Assembly (NCBI GenBank): GCA_022841825.1
Contig: JALHQT010000002.1
Location: forward strand, 62,001-126,000
Length of the DNA stretch: 64,000 nt
Direction of reading: 5' to 3'
Source of the DNA: Anaerolineae bacterium
Lineage (GTDB): Bacteria; Chloroflexota; Anaerolineae; Aggregatilineales; Phototrophicaceae
Of this stretch, positions 36,013-48,544 are shown in pieces (position 1 is the stretch's first letter; each line of letters begins with the position of its first letter). The notes under the pieces are model-generated. The model saw nothing but the letters and a program-made list of their open reading frames with translations. It was not told the origin of the DNA and searched no databases. The translations under genes and the position numbers were made by a program.

Positions 36013-37191
36013 ATGAACATCCACAAATCACTCGATACGTTCGACAAGCTGGCGCAGATCGCCGACGCGACCGAGTTCGAGCCTGCCGGCGACCAGCCTC
36101 AGGACGAGCGGCGCGCTTCCAAGCCAGGCAAGGAGCGCGAGCAGTACCAATCGCGCAGCCTGGCGGAGTGCATCACGCATGTCGCCACGCCCAAAGGCGC
36201 GATGCCGATGCTCAAGACGATGATCACGACCGCCTGCGAGCGCAACTGCTTCTACTGCCCCTTCCGCGCCGGGCGCGGCAAGACCAAACGAGTCACCTTC
36301 ACGCCCGACCAACTGGCGACCGCCGCCGCCGAGATGACGCGGGCGGGCAGCGTGCGCGGCATGTTCCTCTCGTCTGGCATCATCAAGGGCAGCGTGACGA
36401 CGCAGGACAAGATCATCGACACGGCGGAAATTCTCCGGCGCAGGCATCGCTACGATGGGTTTCTGCATCTGAAGATCATGCCTGGGGTTGAGAAAGACCA
36501 GCTTCTGCGCACCATGCAGCTCGCCGACCGCATCTCGGTCAACCTGGAAGCGCCGACGCAGGAACGCCTGGAGGCGCTCGCGCCCAAGAAGGAGTTCACG
36601 CGCGAACTGCTCGACATGCTGATGCTCGCCGCGCAGATTCGGCGCGAAAACCCGCGTATGAAGCTGGCGGGCAGCGTGACGCAGTTCGTGGTCGGCGCGG
36701 TCGGCGATACGGATGTCGAGCTTCTGTCGTTGAGCGCGCAGTTGTATCGTCAGGCGAACCTCAAGCGCGTCTACTACTCGCCTTTTCACCCGGTCAGCGG
36801 GACGCCGCTGGAAGGCGTCGCGGCGACCGACCCGCTGCGCGAACACCGTTTGTATCAGGCGAGCTTCCTGCTGCGTGATTACGCCTGGGAGGTCGAAGAT
36901 CTGCCGTTCCTTGGTGCAGGGGATCTGCGGCTGGACATCGACCCCAAGCGCGCGTGGGCGGAGGCGCATCTTGTGAACGCGCCCATCGACCTGATGACGG
37001 CGGACAGGACTCAGCTCATGCGCATTCCGGGCGTGGGTCCCGTCGCTGCTACGGCGATCCTCAAAGCTCGCCGCGAGCGACGCCTGACCGACCTCACACA
37101 GCTCACCGCGCTGATGCGCAGCGCGGCACAGGCAGCACCGTACATTCTCCTCGACGGGCGGCGACCGGAGCAGCAGTTGCGGCTGTTTTAG
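36013..37191 (+). CDS. Radical SAM protein of the DNA modification/repair (UDG-linked) type
   Basis: 392 residues. The radical SAM cysteines are Cys75, Cys79 and Cys82 in [12 protein letters not shown] (CxxxCxxC). The middle carries [15 protein letters not shown] and [14 protein letters not shown] helix-hairpin-helix at about residues 330-360 ([16 protein letters not shown]) suggests DNA binding. This is the architecture of the putative DNA modification/repair radical SAM family that is often next to a uracil-DNA glycosylase-like gene; no such partner is in the window. The precise reaction is unknown. Confidence 0.82.
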
Positions 37192-37850
37192 CGCTGCCCG
37201 TACTTCTTGATGAATGCCTCGACGTCGTTCATTTCGTCCAGCCGCGCGCCCAGCGTCGCATGATCCCAATCCCACCAGGCAATGCCCAGCAGCGCCTCGG
37301 CGATGCGTTCGGGGAAGCGCGGGCGGACGATCTTCGCAGGTACGCCGACGGCGATCATGTAAGGCGGCACATCTTTGGTGACGACCGCGCCGCTGCCGAC
37401 CACCGCGCCGTTCCCGATGCTGACACCCGGCATGACGAGCACGCCGTGCCCCAGCCAGGTATCATGACCGATCGTGCATTTGTGGTCGCGCCGCCACTGA
37501 AAGAAGTCCTGGTCGTCCTCGCCAAAGCCGTACAGCTTGCGGCGGTAGGTCATGTGATGCAGGGTCACGCGCTCCATGGGGTGATTGCCGGGGTTGATGC
37601 GGACGTGTGAAGCGATGTTGCTGAACTTCCCGATCTCGCTGTAGATGATCTGGTTATCGCCGGCGGTGTAGCTGTAATCGCCAAACGTCGTCTCGACGAT
37701 GGAGCTGTTGGCACCGATCTCGGTGTAAGCGCCAAAGTGCGAGTCGTGGACGACGACATTGCTATGAAAGGCAGGCTCCTCGCCGAGCGCTTTCATGCCG
37801 ATATGCGTGCCATCGCCGATGTTTGAAAAGTGCGTAACGTGGATCATCAT
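37188..37850 (-). CDS. Phosphonate-cluster hexapeptide acetyltransferase
   Basis: 220 residues, left-handed beta-helix with hexapeptide repeats ([61 protein letters not shown]). It matches the xenobiotic-type acetyltransferase family found at the end of many phn clusters, where it probably acetylates an aminoalkylphosphonate, a role served by PhnO in E. coli. His in [15 protein letters not shown] is a candidate catalytic residue. ATG at 37850 overlaps the phnM stop (ATGA). It ends the C-P lyase operon and overlaps the radical SAM gene by four bases. Confidence 0.85.
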
Positions 37851-39049
37851 TCCCCCGCCATCTCCACGTCTGCCGCCAGCGCCTGCCAGAGGCGCGCGCC
37901 GTGCACATCGCTGTAGATCACCTCGCCGCTGCGCAGCGTCGCCCGCACCTTCACCTCTTCGCCCGGCTCCACCAGCACGATGTCCGCCGCGCAGCCAACC
38001 GCGATGCGCCCACGATCCTCCAGCCCGCAGGCGTCGGCGGGGTTCGCCGTCACCAGGCGGATCGCGTCGGGCAGCGGCAGGACGCCTTCGCGCGCAAGCT
38101 TGAACGGCGTTTGGAGCATGGCAGCCGGGTAGTAATCCGACGCCAGAATATCGACCACACCCGCGCGGATGCCATCCATCGCGCTCAGATTGCCCGTGTT
38201 GCTGCCGCCGCGATAGGCGTTGGGAGCGCCCATGATGATGTGCATCCCGCGCCCCTGCGCCGCCCGCGCCGCTTCGACGTTGATTGGGAACTCGGCGATG
38301 CTGACGCCCATCTCCGCCTGCGTGTCGATCTTCTCGACCGTGTCGTCGTCGTGCGAGGCGACATGCACGCCATGCGCCAGCGCCGTGTCGATGATCGCTT
38401 TCGCCAGCGACCAATCGCGCGGCTGCGCCTGGATGACCTCGATCTTCTCCTCGATGCGCGCGTAGACGGGCGCGAGCTGCTCGTCGGTGAAGCCCAGCCA
38501 CTCCTTGAGGAAGGTCGTGTAGCGCGTGGTGTCGTTGTACTGACCCTGCCCTGGCGTGTGATCCATGATCGACACCAGGTCGATCATGCCGCGCGTCAGC
38601 ATCCCATCCAGCAGCGGCACCGTGTCCGGGTTGTTGACCTCGAAGCGGGCGTGAATCCGGCAGTCGGTCAGCAGCGTCCCCTTGATGCGATGCAGCGTCT
38701 CGATGATGCGCGTCGCCATCTCCTGCGTACGCAGGTCGCTCTTGCGCCAGGCAAAGCCAATCGCCGCGTATGCCGTCGTGATGCCCGTCGCGGCGAGCCG
38801 CTTGTCGAGTTCGTGCATCGCCAGCTCGACCGGGAAGAGCGCGCGCGGGCGCGGCTCGACTTCGCGTTCCAGCATGTCGCCGTGCAGGTCGATCAAGCCG
38901 GGGATCGCCGTCAGACCGTGCGCGCTTAACACCTCGCCGCCGGGTGCGTCGCCTTCGAGGATGGTCTCGATGCGCCCGTTGAGGATGCGCAGCGCCCCTT
39001 TTTCGATGATTCCGTCGGGAAGGATGATCCGTAAGTTGCTAATCCACAT
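37847..39049 (-). CDS. phnM: alpha-D-ribose 1-methylphosphonate 5-triphosphate diphosphatase
   Basis: 400 residues of the amidohydrolase superfamily. Metal ligands: [19 protein letters not shown] (residues about 50-68), VASHDDDT near 247, and a late [13 protein letters not shown] block. The enzyme removes pyrophosphate from the ribose triphosphate intermediate made by the PhnGHI complex, before the C-P lyase step. The start ATG at 39049 overlaps phnL by 11 bases. Confidence 0.92.
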
Positions 39050-39749
39050 GCTCGACTGCTCCGTTGAGAACGACGCTGGTCAGGGAAATCTCGCCGTCGA
39101 TGAGATGCTGCACATCTTCGGGATGATGAAAGACGCCGATCATAGCGACGCCGTGTTGTTTGGCGGATGCCAGTCGTTCGACCAGCGCCGCGCGGGCGAT
39201 GCGGTCGAGCGATGCGGTGGGTTCGTCGAGCAGCAGCAGCCGCCGCTCGGCGATCAGCGCGCGCGCCAGATTGACTTTCTGCTGCTCGCCGCCGCTGAAT
39301 GTCGAGGGATAACCCTGCCAGACATCGCGCTTCAGGTTGAGCGTATCGAGCCAGGTTTCCGCATGGAGCTGCGCCTCTTCCCAGTCCCAGCCTGCGTCGA
39401 GCAGCGGTTCCATCACCAGTTCGAGCGCGCTGACACGCGGGCGCGGGCGCAAGAACTGCGTGACGAAGCCGATCTCTTCGCGGCGCAGCAGCGCGATATC
39501 GACATCCGCCGCGTGCGCCAGGTCGATGTGCCCGTGCTGGCTCGTATACCAGGCATAACCGCTGCTCGGCATATACGTGCGGTAGAGGCAGCGCAGCAGC
39601 GACGACTTGCCCGCGCCATTGACGCCCGTCACGAGCAGGAACTGCCCTTTGTCGAGCGTGAACGAGAGATCGCGGAAGACGCCGATCTCGCGCTGGAGGT
39701 GGTCGATATGAAAGTCTTTGGTCAGACGTTCGACGGTCAATAGAGGCAT
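39039..39749 (-). CDS. phnL: C-P lyase complex ATP-binding subunit PhnL
   Basis: 236 residues, ABC-type ATPase. Walker A GVNGAGKSS near residue 43, FSGGEQQKVNLARAL near 145 and LLLDEPTASLD near 170. PhnL joins PhnK on the PhnGHIJ core rather than acting in transport; the block RPRPRVSALELVMEPLL is specific to PhnL. Start ATG at 39749 (MPLLTVERL); a longer frame is not conserved. It overlaps phnM at the 3-prime end. Confidence 0.92.
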   Translation of the reverse strand: MPLLTVERLTKDFHIDHLQREIGVFRDLSFTLDKGQFLLVTGVNGAGKSSLLRCLYRTYMPSSGYAWYTSQHGHIDLAHAADVDIALLRREEIGFVTQFLRPRPRVSALELVMEPLLDAGWDWEEAQLHAETWLDTLNLKRDVWQGYPSTFSGGEQQKVNLARALIAERRLLLLDEPTASLDRIARAALVERLASAKQHGVAMIGVFHHPEDVQHLIDGEISLTSVVLNGAVEHVD

Positions 39750-39765
39750 ACTGTCTTTTCCCTCG

Positions 39766-40320
39766 TTAGCCACCCAAAACCTCAATAAAGACGCGAAATC
39801 GATTGGGATTGCTGGTATCGATTAGAACCTCTTGGCTGAATTCTGTGACGGTGTAAAAGCCATAGATGAAAGACTCCATCTCCTCACTCCATGTTCGCAT
39901 TTGAGCAGATGACTGGCTGTAGCCGGTACCGAAGACGCGAGGTTCGGGCATTTCACCTACCCATTGACTGGCTTCGATACTTGTACTCGCTTGAAATACC
40001 CTTAAGTCGGCAGGCAGCATTTCAAAGCTTGCACTCAGCCCCCACCCTTGCATGCCGCCGCATTCGGATTGGATAGTCATCGCACTCTCCGGAAACTCGA
40101 ACCGACCGAGCGTTTCCGTTTGCTCAATGCCCTGGGGATCATCCACTCTACAGCCACCATCAAACATTCCCACTGCCATCATCAACATTGAGTAGATGAG
40201 CAATACGCCCATTGCCAAACCCCCTACCAATCCAACCATGCATGGAAGTAATATCATCCACCAGTGTCTGCGCGCCCAAGACATGAAGTGAGGCGCTGGA
40301 GGTATTCCACTCATGAGCAT
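39766..40320 (-). CDS. Unknown membrane protein inside the phn operon
   Basis: 184 residues. A short cytoplasmic N-terminus, a double membrane segment (about residues 22-55, WWMILLPCMVGLVGGLAMG), then an extracytoplasmic domain with several strands and a Cys pair (GGCRVDDP, QSECGGM). No family recognised. The DNA is clearly lower in GC than the flanking phnK and phnL genes, so it may have been inserted recently. GGGGAG lies immediately before the chosen ATG and AGGTGG further up; an in-frame ATG two codons on is possible. Confidence 0.55.
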   Translation of the reverse strand: MLMSGIPPAPHFMSWARRHWWMILLPCMVGLVGGLAMGVLLIYSMLMMAVGMFDGGCRVDDPQGIEQTETLGRFEFPESAMTIQSECGGMQGWGLSASFEMLPADLRVFQASTSIEASQWVGEMPEPRVFGTGYSQSSAQMRTWSEEMESFIYGFYTVTEFSQEVLIDTSNPNRFRVFIEVLGG

Positions 40321-40382
40321 GCTCCCCGATCCACCTTTGTTTAAGTAAAGCTGGATTACGGAGACATTATCCTTGTTTTGCC

Positions 40383-41204
40383 TCACAATTTGGCATGGAC
40401 CAACTGCTGCGTGTACGGATGCTGCGGGTCGTCGAGAATCTGGTCGGTCAGCCCGCGCTCGACGACGCGCCCGCCGCGCATCACCAGCACGCGGTCTGCC
40501 AGCGTGCGGATGACGCCCAGGTCGTGCGAGACGAGCACGATGGTCATGTCGCGCTCGCGCTGGAGCCGCTTGAGCGTGTCGAGCACCGTCGCCTGGATGC
40601 TGACATCCAAGCCCGTCGTCGGCTCGTCCAGCAGGAGCAGGGCGGGCTTCATCGCCAGCGCCTTCGCCAACTGCACGCGCTGCTGCATCCCGCCGGAAAG
40701 CACGCGCGGCGGGTCATCCATCCGGTCGAGCGGGAATTCCGACGCCGCCAGCGAGTCGCGCGCGGCAGCTCGCAGCGTCGCAAAGCTGCGTTCGCCCGCG
40801 ATCAGCAGACGCTCGGCGACGTTGCCGCTGCTGGTGAACTTCATCCGTAAGCCCAGGTGTGGGTTCTGGTAGACGATGCCGATGTGCTTAATCTGCACAC
40901 CACGTCGATCAAAGCGCGGCAGGGCGAACAGGTCACGCTCGCGGATGCCGTCGATGTCGAGCGTATAGACGCCCACGTCCGGCATTTCTTCCAGGTTGAG
41001 CAGGCGCAGCAGCGTCGATTTACCCGACCCCGACTCGCCGACCACGCCGACGACTTCGCCCGGATAGACCTCCAGCGACACGTCGTGCATCGCCATCCGC
41101 GTCCCGTAGCGCTTGGTCAGCCCTTCGGCGCGCAGCAGCGGCGGCGTCGCTTGCAGACGCGGCGCGTCAAGCGGGACGGACGGGCGGCTTGAGATAACCG
41201 TCAT
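40383..41204 (-). CDS. phnK: C-P lyase complex ATP-binding subunit PhnK
   Basis: 273 residues, ABC ATPase. Walker A GESGSGKST near residue 56, VLSGGMQQRVQLAKALAMKPA near 160 and LLLLDEPTTGLDVS near 185, ending with YTQQLV typical of Opp/Phn ATPases. PhnK binds the PhnJ/PhnI core as a dual ABC module with PhnL. Start ATG at 41204; it overlaps the 3-prime end of phnJ by 38 bases, so translation is coupled. An unusual unknown gene follows it instead of phnL. Confidence 0.93.
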   Translation of the reverse strand: MTVISSRPSVPLDAPRLQATPPLLRAEGLTKRYGTRMAMHDVSLEVYPGEVVGVVGESGSGKSTLLRLLNLEEMPDVGVYTLDIDGIRERDLFALPRFDRRGVQIKHIGIVYQNPHLGLRMKFTSSGNVAERLLIAGERSFATLRAAARDSLAASEFPLDRMDDPPRVLSGGMQQRVQLAKALAMKPALLLLDEPTTGLDVSIQATVLDTLKRLQRERDMTIVLVSHDLGVIRTLADRVLVMRGGRVVERGLTDQILDDPQHPYTQQLVHAKL

Positions 41205-42102
41205 GGTAGAAGTTCCCCTGTTCGTCAAAGTAAGTCGCGCCCGGCGCGAGGTCGTTCTTGAGCTTTTCGGCATAGCCGCTGTCGGAAAGCTCGAATGTCG
41301 CGCTGCCATCGTCCTGCGGCAGTTCGTTCATGAATTTGTTCGCCGCGCCGGTCGTCTTGCAGACGCGCCCGGTCTGGTCTTCGATCTGGAAGGGCACGTC
41401 ATCGAATTCGAGCGGCTGCACATTCGTGTAAGGCGGCACGGCGTACATGCGCTTTTCGCGCCCTGCGGAGAGCAGCGTCAGATGCGCCGCCTGATGCAGC
41501 TTGGGCGTGTCCCAGCGCGGGATCGGGCTGGGGTTCATGATGTAGCGCCCATGCACCAGCGACGGATAGTCCGCCCCCTGTACATACTGCTTGAAGCGCA
41601 CCAACTGCTCGTACAAGCCCAGCCACATCTGCCCATAGTCGGCGTCGGCGTGGAGCTGCGCCGCCTTGCTGATGTCCGGCTGCACACGGCGCAGCGGCTC
41701 AGGATCGGGCACCTGCAAGACCAGCACCTGCCCCTCCTGCATGATTTCCTCCGGGATGCGGTGGCGGCTTTGCAGGATGGTCGCCCGGAGCGTGTCGGTC
41801 GTGGTCGATGCGCCGCTCATGCGCTTGATGAAGCGGCGCAGGTTGGCGGCGTTCACGCTGTCATCCGCGCCCTGGTCGATCACCTTGACGATGCTGTCGG
41901 GACCGACCAGCGCCAGCGTCACCTGCAAGCCGCCCGTGCCCCAGCCGCGCGCAATCGGCAGCTCGCGGCTGGCATACGGCACCTGATAGCCGGGGATGGC
42001 AATCGCTTTGAGGGCGCGGCGGCGCAGCTCGCGCTTGGCGTAGGCATCCAGGTAGCCGAAGCTGTAGCCCTGGCGTTCATTGGTTAATTCGGACAAAGTC
42101 AT
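41167..42102 (-). CDS. phnJ: PhnJ-family C-P lyase subunit lacking the iron-sulfur cysteines
   Basis: 311 residues. Core blocks are conserved: GYSFGYLDAYAKRELRRR, the glycine-radical region AIPGYQVPYASREL (Gly38), GWGTGG, KVIDQGADDSVN, RYIMNPSPIPRWD, GREKRMYAVPPYTNV. In E. coli PhnJ Cys241, Cys244, Cys266 and Cys272 serve the [4Fe-4S] radical SAM site and catalysis. Here the corresponding residues read Cys248, Thr251, Leu272 and Ala278 (VCKTTG, FELSD, GYAEKL). I checked the codons on the DNA. A 30-residue extra C-terminal tail is present. The gene is intact and in operon position; either activity works differently or it is a structural subunit. Confidence 0.9.
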   Translation of the reverse strand: MTLSELTNERQGYSFGYLDAYAKRELRRRALKAIAIPGYQVPYASRELPIARGWGTGGLQVTLALVGPDSIVKVIDQGADDSVNAANLRRFIKRMSGASTTTDTLRATILQSRHRIPEEIMQEGQVLVLQVPDPEPLRRVQPDISKAAQLHADADYGQMWLGLYEQLVRFKQYVQGADYPSLVHGRYIMNPSPIPRWDTPKLHQAAHLTLLSAGREKRMYAVPPYTNVQPLEFDDVPFQIEDQTGRVCKTTGAANKFMNELPQDDGSATFELSDSGYAEKLKNDLAPGATYFDEQGNFYHDGYLKPPVRPA

Positions 42103-42222: not shown

Positions 42223-43434
42223 TTATCCAACTTGTTCCGCTTCATCCATCGCCGCGCTTGGTCCCGGCGTCTGCGCGCCCTTGCCGTCATCCCAGCCGAC
42301 CGCCGCCGCCATCTTGCGGATGTTGTCGAGCGAGCTGGCGAAGGTGACGTAATGCGGCAGCTTGAAGTGGATGCAGAAGCCGGATGCCTCGACCGGCTCG
42401 GTGTGGTACATGACGAACTCTTCGCTGTGCGCGGCATGACCGTCGCCGTCGTTCGCCGCCATGTCCATGTCGAGCGTCGATGCGGCGATCAGCTTGACCT
42501 CGTTCCAACCCATCGTCGCCGCGAAGCCGAGCATGTAGCCCTGCTTGCCCGCGTCTGGCGTGATGACTTCGCACTGCGAAACGCGCACGCGCCCTACGCT
42601 GAAGACCGCTCCGGTGACCGGATGCGTCAGCTCGACTTCGCTGTAACCCAGGCGCAGCTCATTGACCGTCGGGTGGATCAAGCCGTAGCCGCGCATGATC
42701 GAGTAGCCGAGCGCCAGCACGCCGCCGGTGTCCGCGCGGGCGAGCGCCTGCAAACGGTGGGCGCGCGGCGCGGGGAACATGACCGTGTCGGTCGTCACAT
42801 CCGGGATGTCCGCCGGGGCGATCTGCTCTGGCTCGGTCGGCGGCAGCAATCCTTGCGCGCGCTGCCAATCGGCGAGAGCGGGATACGTTGAGGTAGGGAC
42901 GCCATTCATGGCGTCCGTGGTGTTGGTGACGGACGAAGGAATTGATTGAACCGCGGAGGGCGCGGAGACGGACGAGGCATGCCTCGTCCCTACGGATGTG
43001 GTCTCCGCGTCTTCGCGGTTCAATGCTGCGCGCTCTTCATCCAGCACATCCAGGCGCAGCAGGCGATGGCTGTAATCGAGCGAGGGACCCAACACCTGCC
43101 CGCCCGGGATGTCCTTGAACGCCGCCGAAATGCGCCGCACCGTGAACAGCTTGTCGGCGCTGGTCGCGTGGGCGTAGGCGATGCGCGGCTGGGTGGCACG
43201 GTAGGCGCGCAGCAGCAGCACCGCTTCGTACAGGTCGCCGCCCGTCTGCGCCAGCGCCAGCGCCGCCAGCTCTGGCGCGTAGAGCGAGCCTTCGCCCATC
43301 ACGCGATCCACCAGATAGGGCATGCCTTCCTGGATGGCGCGCACCATGTCCAGCGTCAGCGCGCCATTGAGTGCGCCGTAAAGCGCTTCCGAATTCTGGA
43401 TGGCTTCTTCGCCACCCTTTGCCGCTACATACAT
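42223..43434 (-). CDS. phnI: Carbon-phosphorus lyase complex subunit PhnI
   Basis: 403 residues. MYVAAKGGEEAIQNSEAL at the start, YEAVLLLRAYRATQPRI, FKDIPGGQVLGPSLDYSHRLLRLDVL, ALGYSIMRGYGLIHP, and LPHYVTFASSLDNIRK are all PhnI blocks. PhnI is the nucleosidase that swaps adenine for the phosphonate on ribose in the PhnGHIJ core. Between residues about 140 and 190 an extra low-complexity stretch rich in Ser/Thr/Pro (SVGTRHASSVS, TTDAMNGVPTST) is encoded by two family A palindromes. It interrupts a linker, not a conserved block. AGAGGAC precedes the ATG. Confidence 0.9.
   Translation of the reverse strand: MYVAAKGGEEAIQNSEALYGALNGALTLDMVRAIQEGMPYLVDRVMGEGSLYAPELAALALAQTGGDLYEAVLLLRAYRATQPRIAYAHATSADKLFTVRRISAAFKDIPGGQVLGPSLDYSHRLLRLDVLDEERAALNREDAETTSVGTRHASSVSAPSAVQSIPSSVTNTTDAMNGVPTSTYPALADWQRAQGLLPPTEPEQIAPADIPDVTTDTVMFPAPRAHRLQALARADTGGVLALGYSIMRGYGLIHPTVNELRLGYSEVELTHPVTGAVFSVGRVRVSQCEVITPDAGKQGYMLGFAATMGWNEVKLIAASTLDMDMAANDGDGHAAHSEEFVMYHTEPVEASGFCIHFKLPHYVTFASSLDNIRKMAAAVGWDDGKGAQTPGPSAAMDEAEQVG
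42893..42917. repeat. Family A palindrome in phnI
   Basis: GTAGGGAC, arms GGACGCCAT/ATGGCGTCC, ending CG. It lies in frame within phnI and encodes TTDAMNGVPT on the coding strand. The second copy is at 42969-42993 in opposite orientation. Confidence 0.85.
42946..43023. repeat. Larger inverted repeat carrying a family A palindrome in phnI
   Basis: Ends of about 23-24 bases (TTGAACCGCGGAGGGCGC... and ...GCGTCTTCGCGGTTCAA) are imperfect inverted repeats of each other and enclose a family A palindrome (42969-42993). The layout is that of a small miniature inverted-repeat element, in frame inside phnI. The A copy is in its loop. Confidence 0.75.
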
Positions 43435-43467: not shown

Positions 43468-44517
43468 CTACGGATCAGGATAAGATGCCGATGGATCGAA
43501 GATTTCGATGCGCGCCCATACCGGGGCATGGTCGCTGCCGCCCGACGTGGGCATCACCCGTGCATCGATGGGATCAAGTCCGCCCTGCGAGAAGATGTAA
43601 TCGAGCCGCATCCAGCGCGTGATATCGACCCCGCGCAGACGCAGCGTATGCGTCAAGCCAATGCCGCTCCCGGCATCCCGATAGGCGTCGCGCATCAGCC
43701 CGGCGATGACGCCGTAATCGTCGTTGGTCTCCGACATGTTGAAGTCGCCCATCACGATCAGATGTGGCGCGCCTTCATCGCGGATGCGCTGGCTGAGGGC
43801 GCGCATCTCGTTGGCGCGCGGCGCGAAATTCAGCCCGCCCGTCAGCGGATGCAGCAGATGGAGGTTGTAGATGATGACCGGATAGGCGGGATGGTCGATG
43901 ACGAGCCGCTGCTGCCCGAACGAACGGGTGTTGCCTTCGAACTCGAAGAATTCATGTTCGAGGATTGGATATTTGCTCAGGAATGCCTGCCCGGCATAGC
44001 CCCACTCCAGCGGGTCGAGCGCCATGTGTGGATACAGATCGGCGAGACCCTCGTCAAGCTGCACGGCGGCTTGCGGGCTGATCTCCTGAAGCGCGACAAC
44101 GTCGGCGTCCATCTCGCGGATCAGCGCGAGAGTGGCGTCGTAGGGTTCGCTGCGCCATTGAATGTTGTATGTCACCGTCGTCAGGGTGACCCCGGAGCGT
44201 GCGGCGGTCTGGGCGCTGCTGCCGACGAAACGCACGCCGAAGACCAGGAGCCATGCCAGCGAGGGCAGCACCAGCAGCGGCACAGCGCGCCACACCCGCA
44301 GCAGCAGCGCGACGACCAGCAGGATCAGCGCAAACAGCCACAGCCAGTGCGCAGCGGTTGCATAGACCGCCATCGGCAGGAAGCTGTCGGTCACGACCAG
44401 GCGCAGCAGGAGCAACAGCGTGGCGACCGCACCATACGCGCCTGCCGCCAGTGCAAACAGCCGGACGAGGCAGCCGCGCGGCTTGCGTGCGCTTTGCGCT
44501 GTCTCCACTCTGCTCAT
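43468..44517 (-). CDS. Membrane-anchored endonuclease/exonuclease/phosphatase family protein
   Basis: 349 residues. Three N-terminal membrane helices (about residues 17-41, 56-74, 77-95) place the catalytic domain on the outside if the N-terminus is inside. The EEP catalytic residues are all present: Asn in TYNIQW, Glu in VVALQEIS, His in NLHLLHPLT, Asp/Asn in GDFNMSETND, Asp in LDYIFS and Asp-His in GSDHAPVWA. EEP enzymes hydrolyse phosphodiesters or phosphomonoesters. The gene sits between phnI and phnH with 8-bp and 33-bp gaps; a role in releasing phosphonate or phosphate esters outside the cell is a reasonable inference. Confidence 0.85.
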   Translation of the reverse strand: MSRVETAQSARKPRGCLVRLFALAAGAYGAVATLLLLLRLVVTDSFLPMAVYATAAHWLWLFALILLVVALLLRVWRAVPLLVLPSLAWLLVFGVRFVGSSAQTAARSGVTLTTVTYNIQWRSEPYDATLALIREMDADVVALQEISPQAAVQLDEGLADLYPHMALDPLEWGYAGQAFLSKYPILEHEFFEFEGNTRSFGQQRLVIDHPAYPVIIYNLHLLHPLTGGLNFAPRANEMRALSQRIRDEGAPHLIVMGDFNMSETNDDYGVIAGLMRDAYRDAGSGIGLTHTLRLRGVDITRWMRLDYIFSQGGLDPIDARVMPTSGGSDHAPVWARIEIFDPSASYPDP

Positions 44518-44525
44518 GACCTGAT

Positions 44526-45074
44526 TTAGCCCACCTGCGTGGTGCGCGGCAGCCCGATGACGTGCCCGTGATCGATCAAATAGACATCCCAGCCGAGCGG
44601 GTAGCGGATGGCACGTTCTCGTAATCCCCAGAAGCGCGCCGGGATGCCGCCGAGCCGGATTTCCTGCGTCGTCTGGATGCCGGGACCCGCCAGCGAGAAG
44701 GTGCTGCCGCTGGCGAACGCGCAGCCGATGATCAGCGTCGCGCCTTCGTCGGGGCGCAGCATCGTGCCGATGTTCGCCTGTGTGATGCTCGCCAACGCCG
44801 CGCCGTCAAGCGCCGGATAGAAGTGATAGGCGGCTTCGCTGGCTGGGAGATGTCTCGCCCCGCTGCGCAGCAGCTCGTCGGCGAGTGTCTTGTCGGGCGT
44901 GAAGAAGCTGGTTTCCAGGTCGAGCAGCGCCGCGCCGATGGCGCTGAAGGTGTCATGCGTGTGCGCTGCGCCGCCGATGTCGTGGATGCGACCGGGGTAC
45001 GAAAGCGCCCACATCAGCGCGAGGAACGTCTCACGGTCGCGCGCTTCGTCGGGGGTGTATGTCGGATAGATCAT
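44526..45074 (-). CDS. phnH: C-P lyase complex subunit PhnH
   Basis: 182 residues, PhnH family. RDRETFLALMWALSYPGRIHDIG near the start is typical, with GATLIIGCAFASGSTFSLAGPGIQTTQEIRLGG and a C-terminal region GWDVYLID. PhnH is a non-catalytic subunit of the PhnGHI nucleosidase core. Its start abuts the stop of phnG (no gap). Followed by the EEP gene at 44517. Confidence 0.92.
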   Translation of the reverse strand: MIYPTYTPDEARDRETFLALMWALSYPGRIHDIGGAAHTHDTFSAIGAALLDLETSFFTPDKTLADELLRSGARHLPASEAAYHFYPALDGAALASITQANIGTMLRPDEGATLIIGCAFASGSTFSLAGPGIQTTQEIRLGGIPARFWGLRERAIRYPLGWDVYLIDHGHVIGLPRTTQVG

Positions 45075-45497
45075 CTAAAAGGTCTCCAGTTCGACGCGCG
45101 TCTTCTCGACTTCGTGCAGCAGCGCTGCGTCTGCCTCGCGCTGTGCATTTGCCTGCGCTGTCACGAACGCCGTCAGCGATTCGGTCGCAATGTCTGCTTG
45201 CAGCGCCGCGTCGATCAGCGCGATGGCAAGCGACTGTTCCAGGTCGCGCCCCAGGCAGGCGGCGTAGCCCTCCGTCCCCGCGCCGATGCGCACGCGCGAC
45301 TCGCTGACCAGCACCTCGCCCAGGTGAAAGCGGCTGCCCTTGACCGTATCGGTGTACGGCAGCATGACCAGCCCGGTGCGGTTGACCAGCACGGTGATGT
45401 CGCCCAGTGAATTGAGCAGCGCCTCAGCCGTCTGCTTGACCTGTTCGGCGGGCGCGTGGGTGAGGATGGACAGGTATTGGGATTGCGGGAAGGACAT
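45075..45497 (-). CDS. phnG: C-P lyase complex subunit PhnG
   Basis: 140 residues. GTEGYAACLGRDLEQSLAIALIDAALQ (the conserved block around the GRD and ALIDA sequences) and RFHLGEVLVSESRVRIG mark PhnG. It is the small subunit that pairs with PhnI in the core. GGAAGGAC precedes the ATG. A family A palindrome lies in the gap to phnD. Confidence 0.9.
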   Translation of the reverse strand: MSFPQSQYLSILTHAPAEQVKQTAEALLNSLGDITVLVNRTGLVMLPYTDTVKGSRFHLGEVLVSESRVRIGAGTEGYAACLGRDLEQSLAIALIDAALQADIATESLTAFVTAQANAQREADAALLHEVEKTRVELETF

Positions 45498-45648: not shown

Positions 45649-46695
45649 TTAGCGCGCGCGCAGGTCGATGCCGAGGTTGGCGGCAATCGCACGCAGGCTG
45701 TCGTACAGCGAGTCGATGCTCTCGACACCCGCTTCTTCCGACGGATCAACATAGTAGCGTTCGAGTTCGTCGACCAGTTCCTGGTTGTCCGCAACTGCCA
45801 GCAATGCGTCCTGAACGGCAGTCTTGAACGATTCCGGCAGCGCGGCATTGATGGCGAAGGGGGTCTCCGGGATCAGGGGCGACTGATGGAAGACGACCAG
45901 GCTGCCTTCGGGGCATTCGTCATAGATCGCCATGATTTCGTCGCGGGTCATCGCCACGAGATAGGGCCATTCTGCGGCGGTCGCGGGACCGTCAATACCC
46001 ATGTCGGTGTAACCGCACAGGTTCTCGATGGCACCTTCATCCGCCTGCACGGGGATGTTGCCATCGAAGGTGGCGGCAGCTTCCACGGTGTCATTGAAGA
46101 CCGAGAGGACGGCGGTCGGGTGATTGCCCGCGAAAGTCACGTTGGCGAACTCTTCGATCTGCGCCGCATCGTCGAACTCCATCGCCTGGAGGATGTCGTT
46201 CGCCGGGACGAGGTAACCACTGGTCGAAGCCGGGTCGGTGAAGGCGAAGCTGCGTCCTGCCAGGTCCTCAATGCTTGTGATGCCCGAACCCTTCTTGGTC
46301 AGCATCAAGCTGAAGTAACCGGGGACTTCGCCCAGGTCAACTTCGACTTCGTAGTTGGCGACGGCGATGGCTTCCGCATTGGCGACATCGGCAGCGAGGA
46401 CATACGAGAACGGACCGACTTCCATCGCGTCCGCGCGGTTGGCAGCCATCGCTTCGATGATGGCGTTGTAGCTGGTGCCGGTGATCAGGACGGTGCGCAC
46501 GCCCAGGGTTTCTTCCAGATACGCGCGCAGCGGTTCGACGGCGGCGAGGGCTTCCTCGACGTTATCGCCGGGATATACGCCGATGATGAAGGTTTCGGGC
46601 CAACCGGTACGATCGACTTCCTGCGCCGATACCAGACCGAAGCCCAGCATGGCGACGACGAGCAGAGCCACGATCACGAGAGCAAACTTCTTCAT
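45649..46695 (-). CDS. phnD: Phosphonate ABC transporter substrate-binding protein
   Basis: 348 residues with a cleavable signal (GLVSA-Q, about residue 24). Typical PhnD fold: FIIGVYPGDNVEEALAAVEPLRAYLEETLGVRTVLITGTSYNAIIEAMAANRADAMEVGPFSYVLA (domain 1) and FAFTDPASTSGYLVP (phosphonate loop), with AVLSVFNDTVEAAATFD. Binds phosphonates outside the membrane and delivers them to PhnE/PhnC. Genes run C-E-D, then the lyase genes. Confidence 0.92.
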   Translation of the reverse strand: MKKFALVIVALLVVAMLGFGLVSAQEVDRTGWPETFIIGVYPGDNVEEALAAVEPLRAYLEETLGVRTVLITGTSYNAIIEAMAANRADAMEVGPFSYVLAADVANAEAIAVANYEVEVDLGEVPGYFSLMLTKKGSGITSIEDLAGRSFAFTDPASTSGYLVPANDILQAMEFDDAAQIEEFANVTFAGNHPTAVLSVFNDTVEAAATFDGNIPVQADEGAIENLCGYTDMGIDGPATAAEWPYLVAMTRDEIMAIYDECPEGSLVVFHQSPLIPETPFAINAALPESFKTAVQDALLAVADNQELVDELERYYVDPSEEAGVESIDSLYDSLRAIAANLGIDLRAR

Positions 46696-46750: not shown

Positions 46751-47719
46751 TTAGATGAAGCGCTGCCGCAGCCAACTGCTAAAACGATCGATGATCGTTA
46801 CAGCCACAACCAAAACAATTGCCGTACCCAGCACGCGGTCATAGTCGCTGGTGCCGGTGTACTTGAAGAGCAGGAAACCCAGACCACCCGCGCCCACCAA
46901 ACCGAGGATGGTCGCATGGCGAACATTCGACTCGAAGAAGATGATGGTGTACGAGATGAAGAGTGGGAATGCCTGCGGGATGACCGCATAGACGAACGTT
47001 TGCATGCCGCCTGCGCCGGTCGCTTTGACGGCGTTGACCTGCGCCGGGTCGATCTGTTCAATCGCCTCGGAAAAGACGCGGGCGAGCGAGCCAACCGAGC
47101 CGAATGCCAGCGCCAGCACCCCTGTGAACGGACCCAGACCGACCGCTGCCACAAATAGCAGGGCGAAGACGAGTTCCGGGATAGCGCGCATGAAGTTGAG
47201 GAACAGACGGGTTACGTTGTAGAGCACCGGGTGGGGCGACGTGTTGCGCGCCGCCAGCAGCGAGAGCGGCAGCGCCATGACGACCGCGCCGAGCGTGCCG
47301 ACGATTGCCATTTGGATCGTCTCGAACATCGCGCTCACCACAGGCAGCCAGCCGATCTCAAGCGTGTTGCCGAACACGTCTATCGTGCTGCGGGTGATGC
47401 TGAAATCGAGAAGCTGCACGCCGAACAGACTGATCTGGACGGGCTGCTCGCGGACGACTTCCCATCCCGGCGGCAGCATCCGCCAGATCAGATTGCCCAT
47501 CGCCACAAACGGGTCCCAGAAGGACGTGATGCGGTTGATTTCGCTGGGACCGACGGCAGAAAAGCTCCACGACAGGATGCCGATGACGACCAGCAGGATC
47601 AACAGCGCGCGGATGCTCAAACGCGGGAAGGGGCGCAGAAGCTGTTCGCGGATCTGCTCCGGGCTGATGGCACTTGCTTTGTTGGCGAGAGCGCCCGCTT
47701 CGTTGACGGTGATATTTGC
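46751..47719 (-). CDS. phnE: Phosphonate ABC transporter permease
   Basis: 322 residues from the GTG at 47719 (AAGGA 6 bases before), which is preferred over a TTG at 47740 directly after phnC. Six membrane helices and the cytoplasmic EAA loop (LARVFSEAIEQIDPAQVNAVKATGAGGMQTFVYAVIPQAFPLF), followed by GLVGAGGLGFLLF typical of PhnE/MetI. Single permease gene, so the transporter is a homodimer in the membrane. Confidence 0.9.
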   Translation of the reverse strand, partial: ANITVNEAGALANKASAISPEQIREQLLRPFPRLSIRALLILLVVIGILSWSFSAVGPSEINRITSFWDPFVAMGNLIWRMLPPGWEVVREQPVQISLFGVQLLDFSITRSTIDVFGNTLEIGWLPVVSAMFETIQMAIVGTLGAVVMALPLSLLAARNTSPHPVLYNVTRLFLNFMRAIPELVFALLFVAAVGLGPFTGVLALAFGSVGSLARVFSEAIEQIDPAQVNAVKATGAGGMQTFVYAVIPQAFPLFISYTIIFFESNVRHATILGLVGAGGLGFLLFKYTGTSDYDRVLGTAIVLVVAVTIIDRFSSWLRQRFI

Positions 47720-47740
47720 CACGCTGGATCCTTTACTCAA

Positions 47741-48544
47741 TTAACCGGGGATAAGCTCGCGCAGTCGTGCGAGTTCCGCCAGGTCTTTTTCCGAGAGGTT
47801 TTTGTCGAAGCGATAAATCGCATCGAGGACGGTCAGGTTGAGTTCGCTCGGCGGTCCATCAAAGACAATCTTGCCGCGCGCGATGCCGATCAGGCGGTCG
47901 CAGAACTGCTGCGCGAGTTCGACCTGATGGATATTGATGAGGGTGAGCACGCCGACTTCGCGGGCGACGCGCGCCAGGTCGCTGAGGACCTGTACCGAGA
48001 GTTCGGGGTCGAGGCTGGCGACGGGTTCATCGGCGAGGAGGATTTTTGGCTGCTGGCTGATGGCGCGCGCAATCGACACGCGCTGCTTTTCGCCGCCGGA
48101 GAGCTTATCGGCACGGAACTTGGCACGGTGGAGTAAGCCGACCTGTTCGAGGCTCTTGAGCGCGATTTCGCGGTGGGATTTATCGAAATAGCCGAAGAAG
48201 CTGGCGAACCCGCTGTTGTAGCCCAGTCGCCCTGTCAGGACGTTGGTGATGGCGGGCAGTCGTTCGACCAGGTTGTACTCCTGCCAGACGAAGCCGATCT
48301 CGCGCCGCGCCTTGCGCAGCTCGCTCTCGTTCATCGCCGTCAGGTCTACGCCGTCGAGGACGATCCGCCCGCCCGTCGGCTTCTGCATCCCGTTGATGCA
48401 GCGCAGCAGGGTCGATTTGCCCGCGCCGCTGCGACCGATGACCCCAACGAGTTCGCCTTTTTCTGCGGAGAATGTGATCGACTTCAGCGCTTCATTGCCG
48501 TTCCCATACACAACGCGGAGTTCATGGACTTCGAGTAACGGCAT
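47741..48544 (-). CDS. phnC: Phosphonate ABC transporter ATP-binding protein
   Basis: 267 residues. Walker A GRSGAGKST near 37, LSGGEKQRVSIARAI near 145, LLADEPVASLDP near 165 and a late NIHQVELAQQFCDR. The block LRKARREIGFVWQEYNLVERLPAITNVLTGRLGY is the PhnC type. It energises PhnE/PhnD import. First gene of the operon; its leader has Pho-box-like sequences. Confidence 0.93.
   Translation of the reverse strand: MPLLEVHELRVVYGNGNEALKSITFSAEKGELVGVIGRSGAGKSTLLRCINGMQKPTGGRIVLDGVDLTAMNESELRKARREIGFVWQEYNLVERLPAITNVLTGRLGYNSGFASFFGYFDKSHREIALKSLEQVGLLHRAKFRADKLSGGEKQRVSIARAISQQPKILLADEPVASLDPELSVQVLSDLARVAREVGVLTLINIHQVELAQQFCDRLIGIARGKIVFDGPPSELNLTVLDAIYRFDKNLSEKDLAELARLRELIPG

Follow-up and report, generated by a model that had tools for sequence, protein, structure and literature searches.

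The closest described counterpart of the system analyzed here is the carbon-phosphorus (C-P) lyase of Escherichia coli, in which PhnJ Cys241, Cys244, and Cys266 are regarded as ligands of a [4Fe-4S] cluster, Cys272 as the attacking thiyl residue, and Gly32 as the site of a glycyl radical. In the cited part of PMC9947105, C-P bond cleavage by this enzyme is called an unresolved conundrum. Part of the difficulty is that Gly32 lies ~30 Å from the cluster site or Cys272, an open discrepancy in the cited parts of PMC9947105 and PMC7916636. The product 5-phosphoribosyl-1,2-cyclic phosphate (PRcP) was modelled into a histidine site where PhnI and PhnJ meet, and the histidines of this site are reported to be essential for growth on phosphonate (PMC9947105). 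For the PhnJ cysteines, both cluster binding and zinc coordination are described in passages of PMC11978286, a recent paper in which PhnJ was validated through its four cysteines. According to its cited passage, a marine survey discarded sequences without the residues held essential (PMC9381506). Here, we present an analysis of the phnJ gene in a 64,000-nucleotide stretch of an Anaerolineae bacterium genome (contig JALHQT010000002.1, positions 62,001 to 126,000; hereafter, the window), which encodes a PhnJ with only one of the four cysteines. We found that this protein belongs to a large, cysteine-poor PhnJ subfamily (subfamily I) that probably still serves in phosphonate cleavage.

The window type shares with E. 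coli the PhnJ fold (as modelled), Gly32, His108, PhnI His328 and His333, and PhnK Gln90, Asp170, Glu171, and His204, and it matches the E. coli gene content except for phnF, phnN, phnO, and phnP. Unlike E. coli, it lacks PhnJ Cys244, Cys266, and Cys272, and it has a cysteine at PhnI position 326, a C-terminal PhnJ extension of ~24 residues (in the window), and substitutions including PhnJ G206S and L251M. The Pfam PhnJ family (PF06007) covers residues 12-282 of the window protein with 409.5 bits against a gathering cut-off of 25, and E. coli PhnJ (4xb6_D) matches it (Table 1). Based on alignments and a check of the codons, E. coli Cys241, Cys244, Cys266, and Cys272 correspond to C248, T251, L272, and A278; two of the three E. 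coli-type cluster ligands and the attacking residue are missing, and C248 is the sole cysteine anywhere in the protein. Gly32 is kept as G38, as far as the presence of the residue goes. The initial annotation had described these substitutions in a full-length, in-frame PhnJ with the glycine-radical region kept and, of the four cysteines, Cys248 alone left. It had also listed phnC, D, E, G, H, I, K, L, and M as intact; all are present, yet PhnK and PhnL, which match their own models best, score below the curated cut-offs. PhnG, H, I, J, K, L, and M are encoded together in the window, as expected for a C-P lyase complex and pathway. Four-cysteine PhnJ proteins of Chloroflexota, Bacillota, and sulfate reducers (e.g., Ktedonobacter, Paenibacillus, and Desulfatibacillum, in which all four cysteines are present) are ~50-58% identical to that of the window and lie in phn operons.

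The cysteine pattern at E. coli positions 241/244/266/272 was read in 230 PhnJ rows, from which re-fetched copies (L135-L145, L147, L177, L199-L201, and L268-L269) and a contig-end fragment (L198) were left out; the plasmid rows L225-L227 (CSLG, CSVG, and CSLG) stand outside the 230. All four cysteines are present in 170 rows, seven of which duplicate a second row across E. coli residues 6-275, in some cases because the same genome entered twice; 52 rows have only Cys241 (C---), seven have none, and a single one is intermediate (C-C-), so that the loss is near all-or-none. The 60 cysteine-poor rows comprise 55 of subfamily I and five of a Bacillota type. Among them, position 241 is Cys in 53 and Asp in 7, position 244 is Thr in 33 and Ser in 27, and position 272 is Gly, Ala, Val, Met, Leu, Lys, or Ile. 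All seven Asp rows fall in subfamily I (Cys in 48/55), and we therefore rejected Cys241 as a universal essential thiol in this subfamily. Gly32 is Gly in 232/232 aligned rows. Five PhnJ proteins contain no cysteine at all from residue 5 on (L035, L205, L206, L208, and L210), and all five sit in operons with phnC, D, E, G, H, I, J, K, L, and M (L035; L216-L219). Replacement cluster cysteines inside PhnJ were also rejected: among columns with an E. coli counterpart, position 33 alone, beyond 241, has Cys in more than 10% of subfamily I. This cysteine, immediately after Gly32, occurs in 18 of the 55 proteins (e.g., L037-L054), and the listed ones are alphaproteobacterial.

Of 400 genomes drawn from the Chloroflexota, 37 have PhnJ, in 38 copies, of which 26 are four-cysteine and 12, including that of the window, cysteine-poor; the other 11 are 69-73% identical to the window protein, nearly full length, and lack the same three cysteines. 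In the Deinococcota (111 genomes; the phylum of G1118, a Trueperaceae metagenome-assembled genome [MAG]), 11 of the 14 genomes with PhnJ have the subfamily type. The corresponding numbers are 2 of 48 in the Alphaproteobacteria (289 genomes; the class of G410, Rhizobium miluonense), namely the seed and one more, and, for cysteine-poor PhnJ in the Bacillota (398 genomes; the phylum of G429, Solibacillus), the seed alone among 21; these two draws include their seed genomes. A scan of named genomes added Anaerolineae, Rhizobium, Devosia, Paracoccus, Haematobacter, roseobacters, and others among the best 80 of 588 confirmed matches. Subfamily I is plasmid-borne in Thermus thermophilus (eight records matched, two of them read: L112 and L113), and further plasmid records come from Sinorhizobium sp. 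B11 (L114) and from Haematobacter massiliensis OT1, Nitratireductor sp. OM-1, and Mesorhizobium sp. AR07 (L225-L227). Plasmid pVV8 of T. thermophilus HB8 carries a complete C-D-E-G-H-I-J-K-L-M operon with CTVM at the four positions; unlike the window, it has Ala at PhnI position 326, a short PhnJ tail, and a gene for a YmdB-like metallophosphoesterase nearby. Among viral contigs, 29 stretches fitted a pattern, and none of them proved to be a relative. Subfamily I provides the only PhnJ in 12/12 genomes of the Chloroflexota draw, all with open, stop-free frames, in 11/11 Deinococcota genomes, and in 5/5 of G400-G404; the five Bacillota-type genomes have one PhnJ each. Two records stand out: L034, a MAG labelled Bacteroidetes, has a phn operon nested among those of Anaerolineae and is possibly mis-binned or the result of transfer, and the PhnJ of L102, whose name, Mycobacterium sp. 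KBS0706, appears doubtful, groups with that of an alphaproteobacterial MAG.

Two quick, unrooted trees without bootstrap, one of PhnJ without its C-terminal domain and one of PhnJ core plus PhnI (from which L080 is absent), split the cysteine-poor rows into two groups. Subfamily I (Chloroflexota type, Alphaproteobacteria, and Thermus/Deinococcota), whose monophyly the initial annotation had asked about, is well supported, with Shimodaira-Hasegawa-like approximate likelihood ratio test values of 94 (43 rows) and 100 (33 rows), respectively; the five Bacillota-type rows stand apart (85 and 82). One joint cysteine-poor clade was rejected on a quick tree (log-likelihood lower by 98; approximately unbiased test, p 0.0001). 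The Bacillota-type rows, which lack two or three of the cysteines missing from subfamily I, thus represent a separate loss. Because Cys241 remains, and because of the distribution, we infer loss rather than gain on these unrooted trees; the change of Cys241 to Asp requires two events on the tree of PhnJ core plus PhnI. The Bacillota type (Solibacillus palustris, a Ureibacillus MAG, an uncultured Anaerolineaceae, and Bacillota and Erysipelotrichaceae MAGs) resembles the window type in that Cys241 is kept, Cys244 is replaced by Thr or Ser, and Cys272 is gone, and Cys266 is lost in four of the five; it differs in its independent origin, in the PhnK cysteine knuckle that it keeps, and in having neither PhnI Cys326 nor the C-terminal extension. 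Oxygen tolerance is a conceivable driver of the loss, and the Bacillota-type set includes MAGs named for groups that we take to be anaerobic.

The ratio of nonsynonymous to synonymous substitution rates (dN/dS) is 0.007-0.16 in the PhnJ core (14 pairs, four of them with dS > 1). For the C-terminal domain, it is 0.03-0.25 over the 12 pairs whose dS is finite, with saturation of synonymous change in two. Both ranges indicate purifying selection on the variant. Consistently, a sequencing error, a frameshift, or decay retains next to no probability: 54 other subfamily I rows share the loss, among them the 11 further proteins of the Chloroflexota draw, dN/dS is low, frames are stop-free in 12 genomes, and no second PhnJ was found in the window's own genome (5.9 Mb, 95.7% complete), where the next match has an E value of 0.4 and the alternative four-cysteine copy considered in the initial annotation is not found. 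Its view that simple decay is improbable is thus borne out by the support for the subfamily, the low dN/dS, and the single copy in Chloroflexota and Deinococcota genomes. The loss that it saw is real; what it took for a single odd protein is a member of a large subfamily.

An AlphaFold2 (AF2) model of the window PhnJ, built from a 64-sequence alignment, has a mean predicted local distance difference test (pLDDT) score of 84.4, and 91-95 in residues 241-300. It aligns with E. coli PhnJ 7z18_D at Z 29.6 and a root-mean-square deviation (rmsd) of 2.4 over 244 residues (aligned span 11-285), with the same Z to 4xb6_D, and Foldseek gives an E value of 5.3e-34 to 7z19_H; the window protein is thus predicted to fold like E. 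coli PhnJ. The model is confident in the C-terminal domain despite the absent metal ligands; its alignment contains four-cysteine rows, which possibly favour this prediction. In the C-terminal extension of window-type PhnJ, G288, T290, Y/F292, and G302 are conserved.

Among the partner proteins, PhnI His328 and His333 are both present in 54/54 subfamily I rows that have residues at these positions (the remaining row is gapped), and the stretch in the window reads GFCIHFKLPH. Position 326 is Cys in 50 of the 54 and Ala in four Thermus-type rows; Cys326 also occurs in 6/133 four-cysteine rows (five Desulfobacterota-type or Nitrospira-type, one grouping with them) and in none of the five Bacillota-type rows. 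It requires three changes on the tree, and within subfamily I it arises after the Thermus-type split, i.e., after the PhnJ loss. PhnG, H, K, L, and M, compared over 27-29 operons, contain no cysteine that half of the rows have in common. The PhnK ATPase residues Q90, D170, E171, and H204 are present in 45/45 C--- rows, including that of the window and four of the Bacillota type. Near E. coli PhnK residue 18, an inserted N-terminal CxxC...CxxC knuckle with pairs 11-12 residues apart in the rows counted (e.g., L061, L018, and L077) was found in 60/65 of the rows with four-cysteine PhnJ and in 5/5 cysteine-poor rows of the Bacillota type, and it is absent from five exceptions including E. coli and from 42/42 rows of subfamily I; all four combinations occur, and a strict coupling of knuckle and PhnJ cysteines was therefore rejected. 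In the Ktedonobacter, Paenibacillus, and Desulfatibacillum kind, PhnK mostly has the knuckle. Cysteine-poor PhnJ is accompanied by complete or near-complete operons, although some loci are truncated where a contig ends. Within the flanks read, phnCDE is missing from some Rhizobium-type clusters; in L226, one of two ATP-binding cassette ATPase genes after phnJ is listed in the PLSDB gene table, which is incomplete; and in Mesorhizobium sp. AR07 (PhnJ CSLG), phnGHIJKLM is followed by genes for a DUF1045 protein and PhnN.

Because two ligands and the attacking residue were lost in two lineages, while the operon was kept and the variant is the single copy in many genomes, we suggest that the complex works without the four-cysteine site. 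Accordingly, our preferred reading, to which we assign a probability of roughly 0.6, is that the window encodes a C-P lyase of the cysteine-poor subfamily that would most likely still cleave phosphonates without a PhnJ [4Fe-4S] cluster or a Cys272 thiyl, an activity deduced from sequence. As in E. coli, the substrate would be imported, coupled to ribose, and trimmed by PhnGHI, PhnL, and PhnM. The C-terminal domain of PhnJ would persist without its metal site, held by a Cys/Asp-x-x-Ser/Thr turn. Cleavage may occur where PhnI and PhnJ meet, around the histidine metal site of PhnI; we place it there because the E. coli histidine site was modelled with PRcP and its histidines are essential in the cited part of PMC9947105. 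If a thiol is required, PhnI Cys326 could supply it in most of the subfamily, and the Thermus type would be left with PhnJ Cys241 only. The reaction could be started by a redox metal bound at the histidine site or by a radical initiator that is not part of the complex. A stronger version, a second C-P lyase class with no iron-sulfur cluster, no PhnJ cysteine, the PhnI histidine metal site, and mostly a PhnI Cys326 thiol, appears doubtful to us. Several observations weigh against the preferred reading. No initiator gene for the reaction was identified, and in the window's own genome neither PhnN nor PhnP was found above curated cut-offs. Whole-chain superposition on E. coli PhnJ in Foldseek gives an rmsd of 7.4-7.6 and a query template modelling score of 0.71-0.72, and parts of the model may therefore be placed differently or wrongly. 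PhnI Cys326 was rejected as a universal compensation, and cannot be the universal thiol, because the Thermus type, which branches first in subfamily I, has Ala. Finally, 20/23 alphaproteobacterial genomes with subfamily I have extra PhnJ matches (fragments only in G409), and the extra PhnJ read, one from each of 19 genomes plus five further copies, all have four cysteines; because such a copy usually coexists there, the variant could be non-catalytic in Alphaproteobacteria. A single PhnJ was seen in H. massiliensis CCUG 47968, but strain OT1 carries a four-cysteine copy as well, on the same plasmid.

The reading of cleavage without the cluster overlaps with the idea that in every C-P lyase the four cysteines bind a metal whose role is structural or accessory, and dispensable, and that the Cys272 mechanism is wrong for E. 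coli too; the two differ only in what is said of E. coli. We regard this wider claim as a serious possibility, at less than even odds. It would account for two independent losses at one site with the rest of the operon kept, it fits the ~30 Å that separate Gly32 from the cluster according to the E. coli accounts cited above and the ascription of both cluster and zinc to the cysteines in PMC11978286, and the domain is predicted confidently without them. As an analogy, some ribosomal proteins drop zinc ribbons. However, a single intermediate in 230 rows indicates that the cysteines are kept or lost jointly, which shows a joint function under either view, and the S-adenosylmethionine and Gly32 radical biochemistry of E. 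coli PhnJ, in the published accounts as far as cited, speaks for the accepted chemistry.

The initial annotation had offered three options: another mechanism, which we consider the best reading; a cluster bound by other residues; and a PhnJ that has become structural. A cluster held by Cys241 or Asp241 together with residues of another subunit or a small thiol could draw on the Cys at position 241 in most of subfamily I, the Asp, a possible metal ligand, in the remainder, and the frequent PhnI Cys326. Nevertheless, five PhnJ proteins have no cysteine, none is shared by half of the rows of PhnG, H, K, L, or M, and PhnI Cys326 adjoins the histidine site in sequence; we consider such outside ligands improbable. 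A structural PhnJ in an operon that traps or modifies phosphonates or related phosphorus compounds without C-P cleavage is somewhat less remote, although still unlikely: the residues proposed for the cluster and for the attack on phosphorus are gone, and in most alphaproteobacterial genomes examined a four-cysteine copy could perform the cleavage. This option is weakened by the two phylum draws in which subfamily I is the only PhnJ, by the retention of PhnCDE, PhnM, the invariant Gly32, and PhnI His328 and His333, and by the operon of Mesorhizobium sp. AR07, which adds DUF1045 and phnN, the latter handling a later cleavage product in the known pathway.

In the open-access literature searched, we found no description of a cysteine-poor PhnJ; subscription literature lay mostly outside this search, which makes it weak evidence of absence. 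Natural complexes without the cluster cysteines offer a direct test of the accepted mechanism, and one is encoded on a plasmid of T. thermophilus HB8, which is in culture. Surveys that filter on essential residues, as described in the cited part of PMC9381506, could omit subfamily I and undercount phosphonate users. If the second class proves true, its members could show a lower sensitivity to oxygen, and what they release from methylphosphonate might not be methane.

Table 1. Features of the phn operon in the window (positions are those of the 64,000-nucleotide stretch)
Feature	Position	Strand	Evidence or remark
phnC, transporter ATPase	47741..48544	(-)	TIGR02315 above cut-off
phnE, permease	46751..47740	(-)	TIGR01097 above cut-off
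phnD, phosphonate-binding protein	45649..46695	(-)	TIGR01098 above cut-off
phnG	45075..45497	(-)	PF06754 E 1.2e-24; TIGR03293 above cut-off
phnH	44526..45074	(-)	PF05845 E 1.7e-32; TIGR03292 above cut-off
phnI, both zinc-site histidines kept	42223..43434	(-)	PF05861 E 7.9e-113
Codon of PhnI Cys354 (E. coli PhnI position 326, two residues ahead of His328)	42373..42375	(-)	
phnJ, cysteine-poor subfamily, 311 aa	41167..42102	(-)	PF06007 E 6.7e-123; 4xb6_D E 3.7e-85
Codon of PhnJ Gly38 (E. coli Gly32, proposed glycyl radical site), conserved	41989..41991	(-)	Alignments
PhnJ C-terminal domain (~residues 242-311), with lost metal site and ~24-residue C-terminal extension	41170..41379	(-)	Alignment, AF2
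Codon of PhnJ Cys248 (E. coli Cys241), kept; Asp in 7 relatives	41359..41361	(-)	Alignments
Codon of PhnJ Thr251 (E. coli Cys244); Ser/Thr in all 60 variants	41350..41352	(-)	Alignments
Codon of PhnJ Leu272 (E. coli Cys266)	41287..41289	(-)	Alignments
Codon of PhnJ Ala278 (E. coli Cys272, proposed thiyl cysteine)	41269..41271	(-)	Alignments
phnK open reading frame, true start probably downstream; no N-terminal CxxC...CxxC knuckle	40383..41309	(-)	TIGR02323 best family, below cut-off
phnL	39039..39785	(-)	TIGR02324 best family, 232 bits, cut-off 256
phnM (ribosylphosphonate triphosphate [RPnTP] diphosphatase)	37847..39049	(-)	NF011990 above cut-off
Hexapeptide acyltransferase	37188..37850	(-)	Pfam Hexapep; common neighbour in phn operons

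Along the direction of transcription, the operon reads phnC, E, D, G, H, a gene of the endonuclease/exonuclease/phosphatase family, phnI, J, K, an open reading frame without a Pfam match, phnL, M, and the acyltransferase gene. The endonuclease/exonuclease/phosphatase-family gene between phnH and phnI (43468-44517) is absent from 39 other mapped loci and might substitute for PhnP. The open reading frame between phnK and phnL (39766-40386; 206 aa) is likewise absent from the other mapped loci. On the opposite strand, a gene for a radical SAM protein with a helix-hairpin-helix (36013-37191, +) adjoins the operon; it was rejected as an activating partner, having no counterpart in 30 + 9 other mapped loci within their limited flanks. 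Near subfamily I operons of Thermus (L112, 15046-15849; L113, 12074-12868) and of Deinococcota (L222, 5805-6740), we noticed genes for a YmdB-like metallophosphoesterase of the TIGR00282 type, which possibly acts on the cyclic phosphate product.

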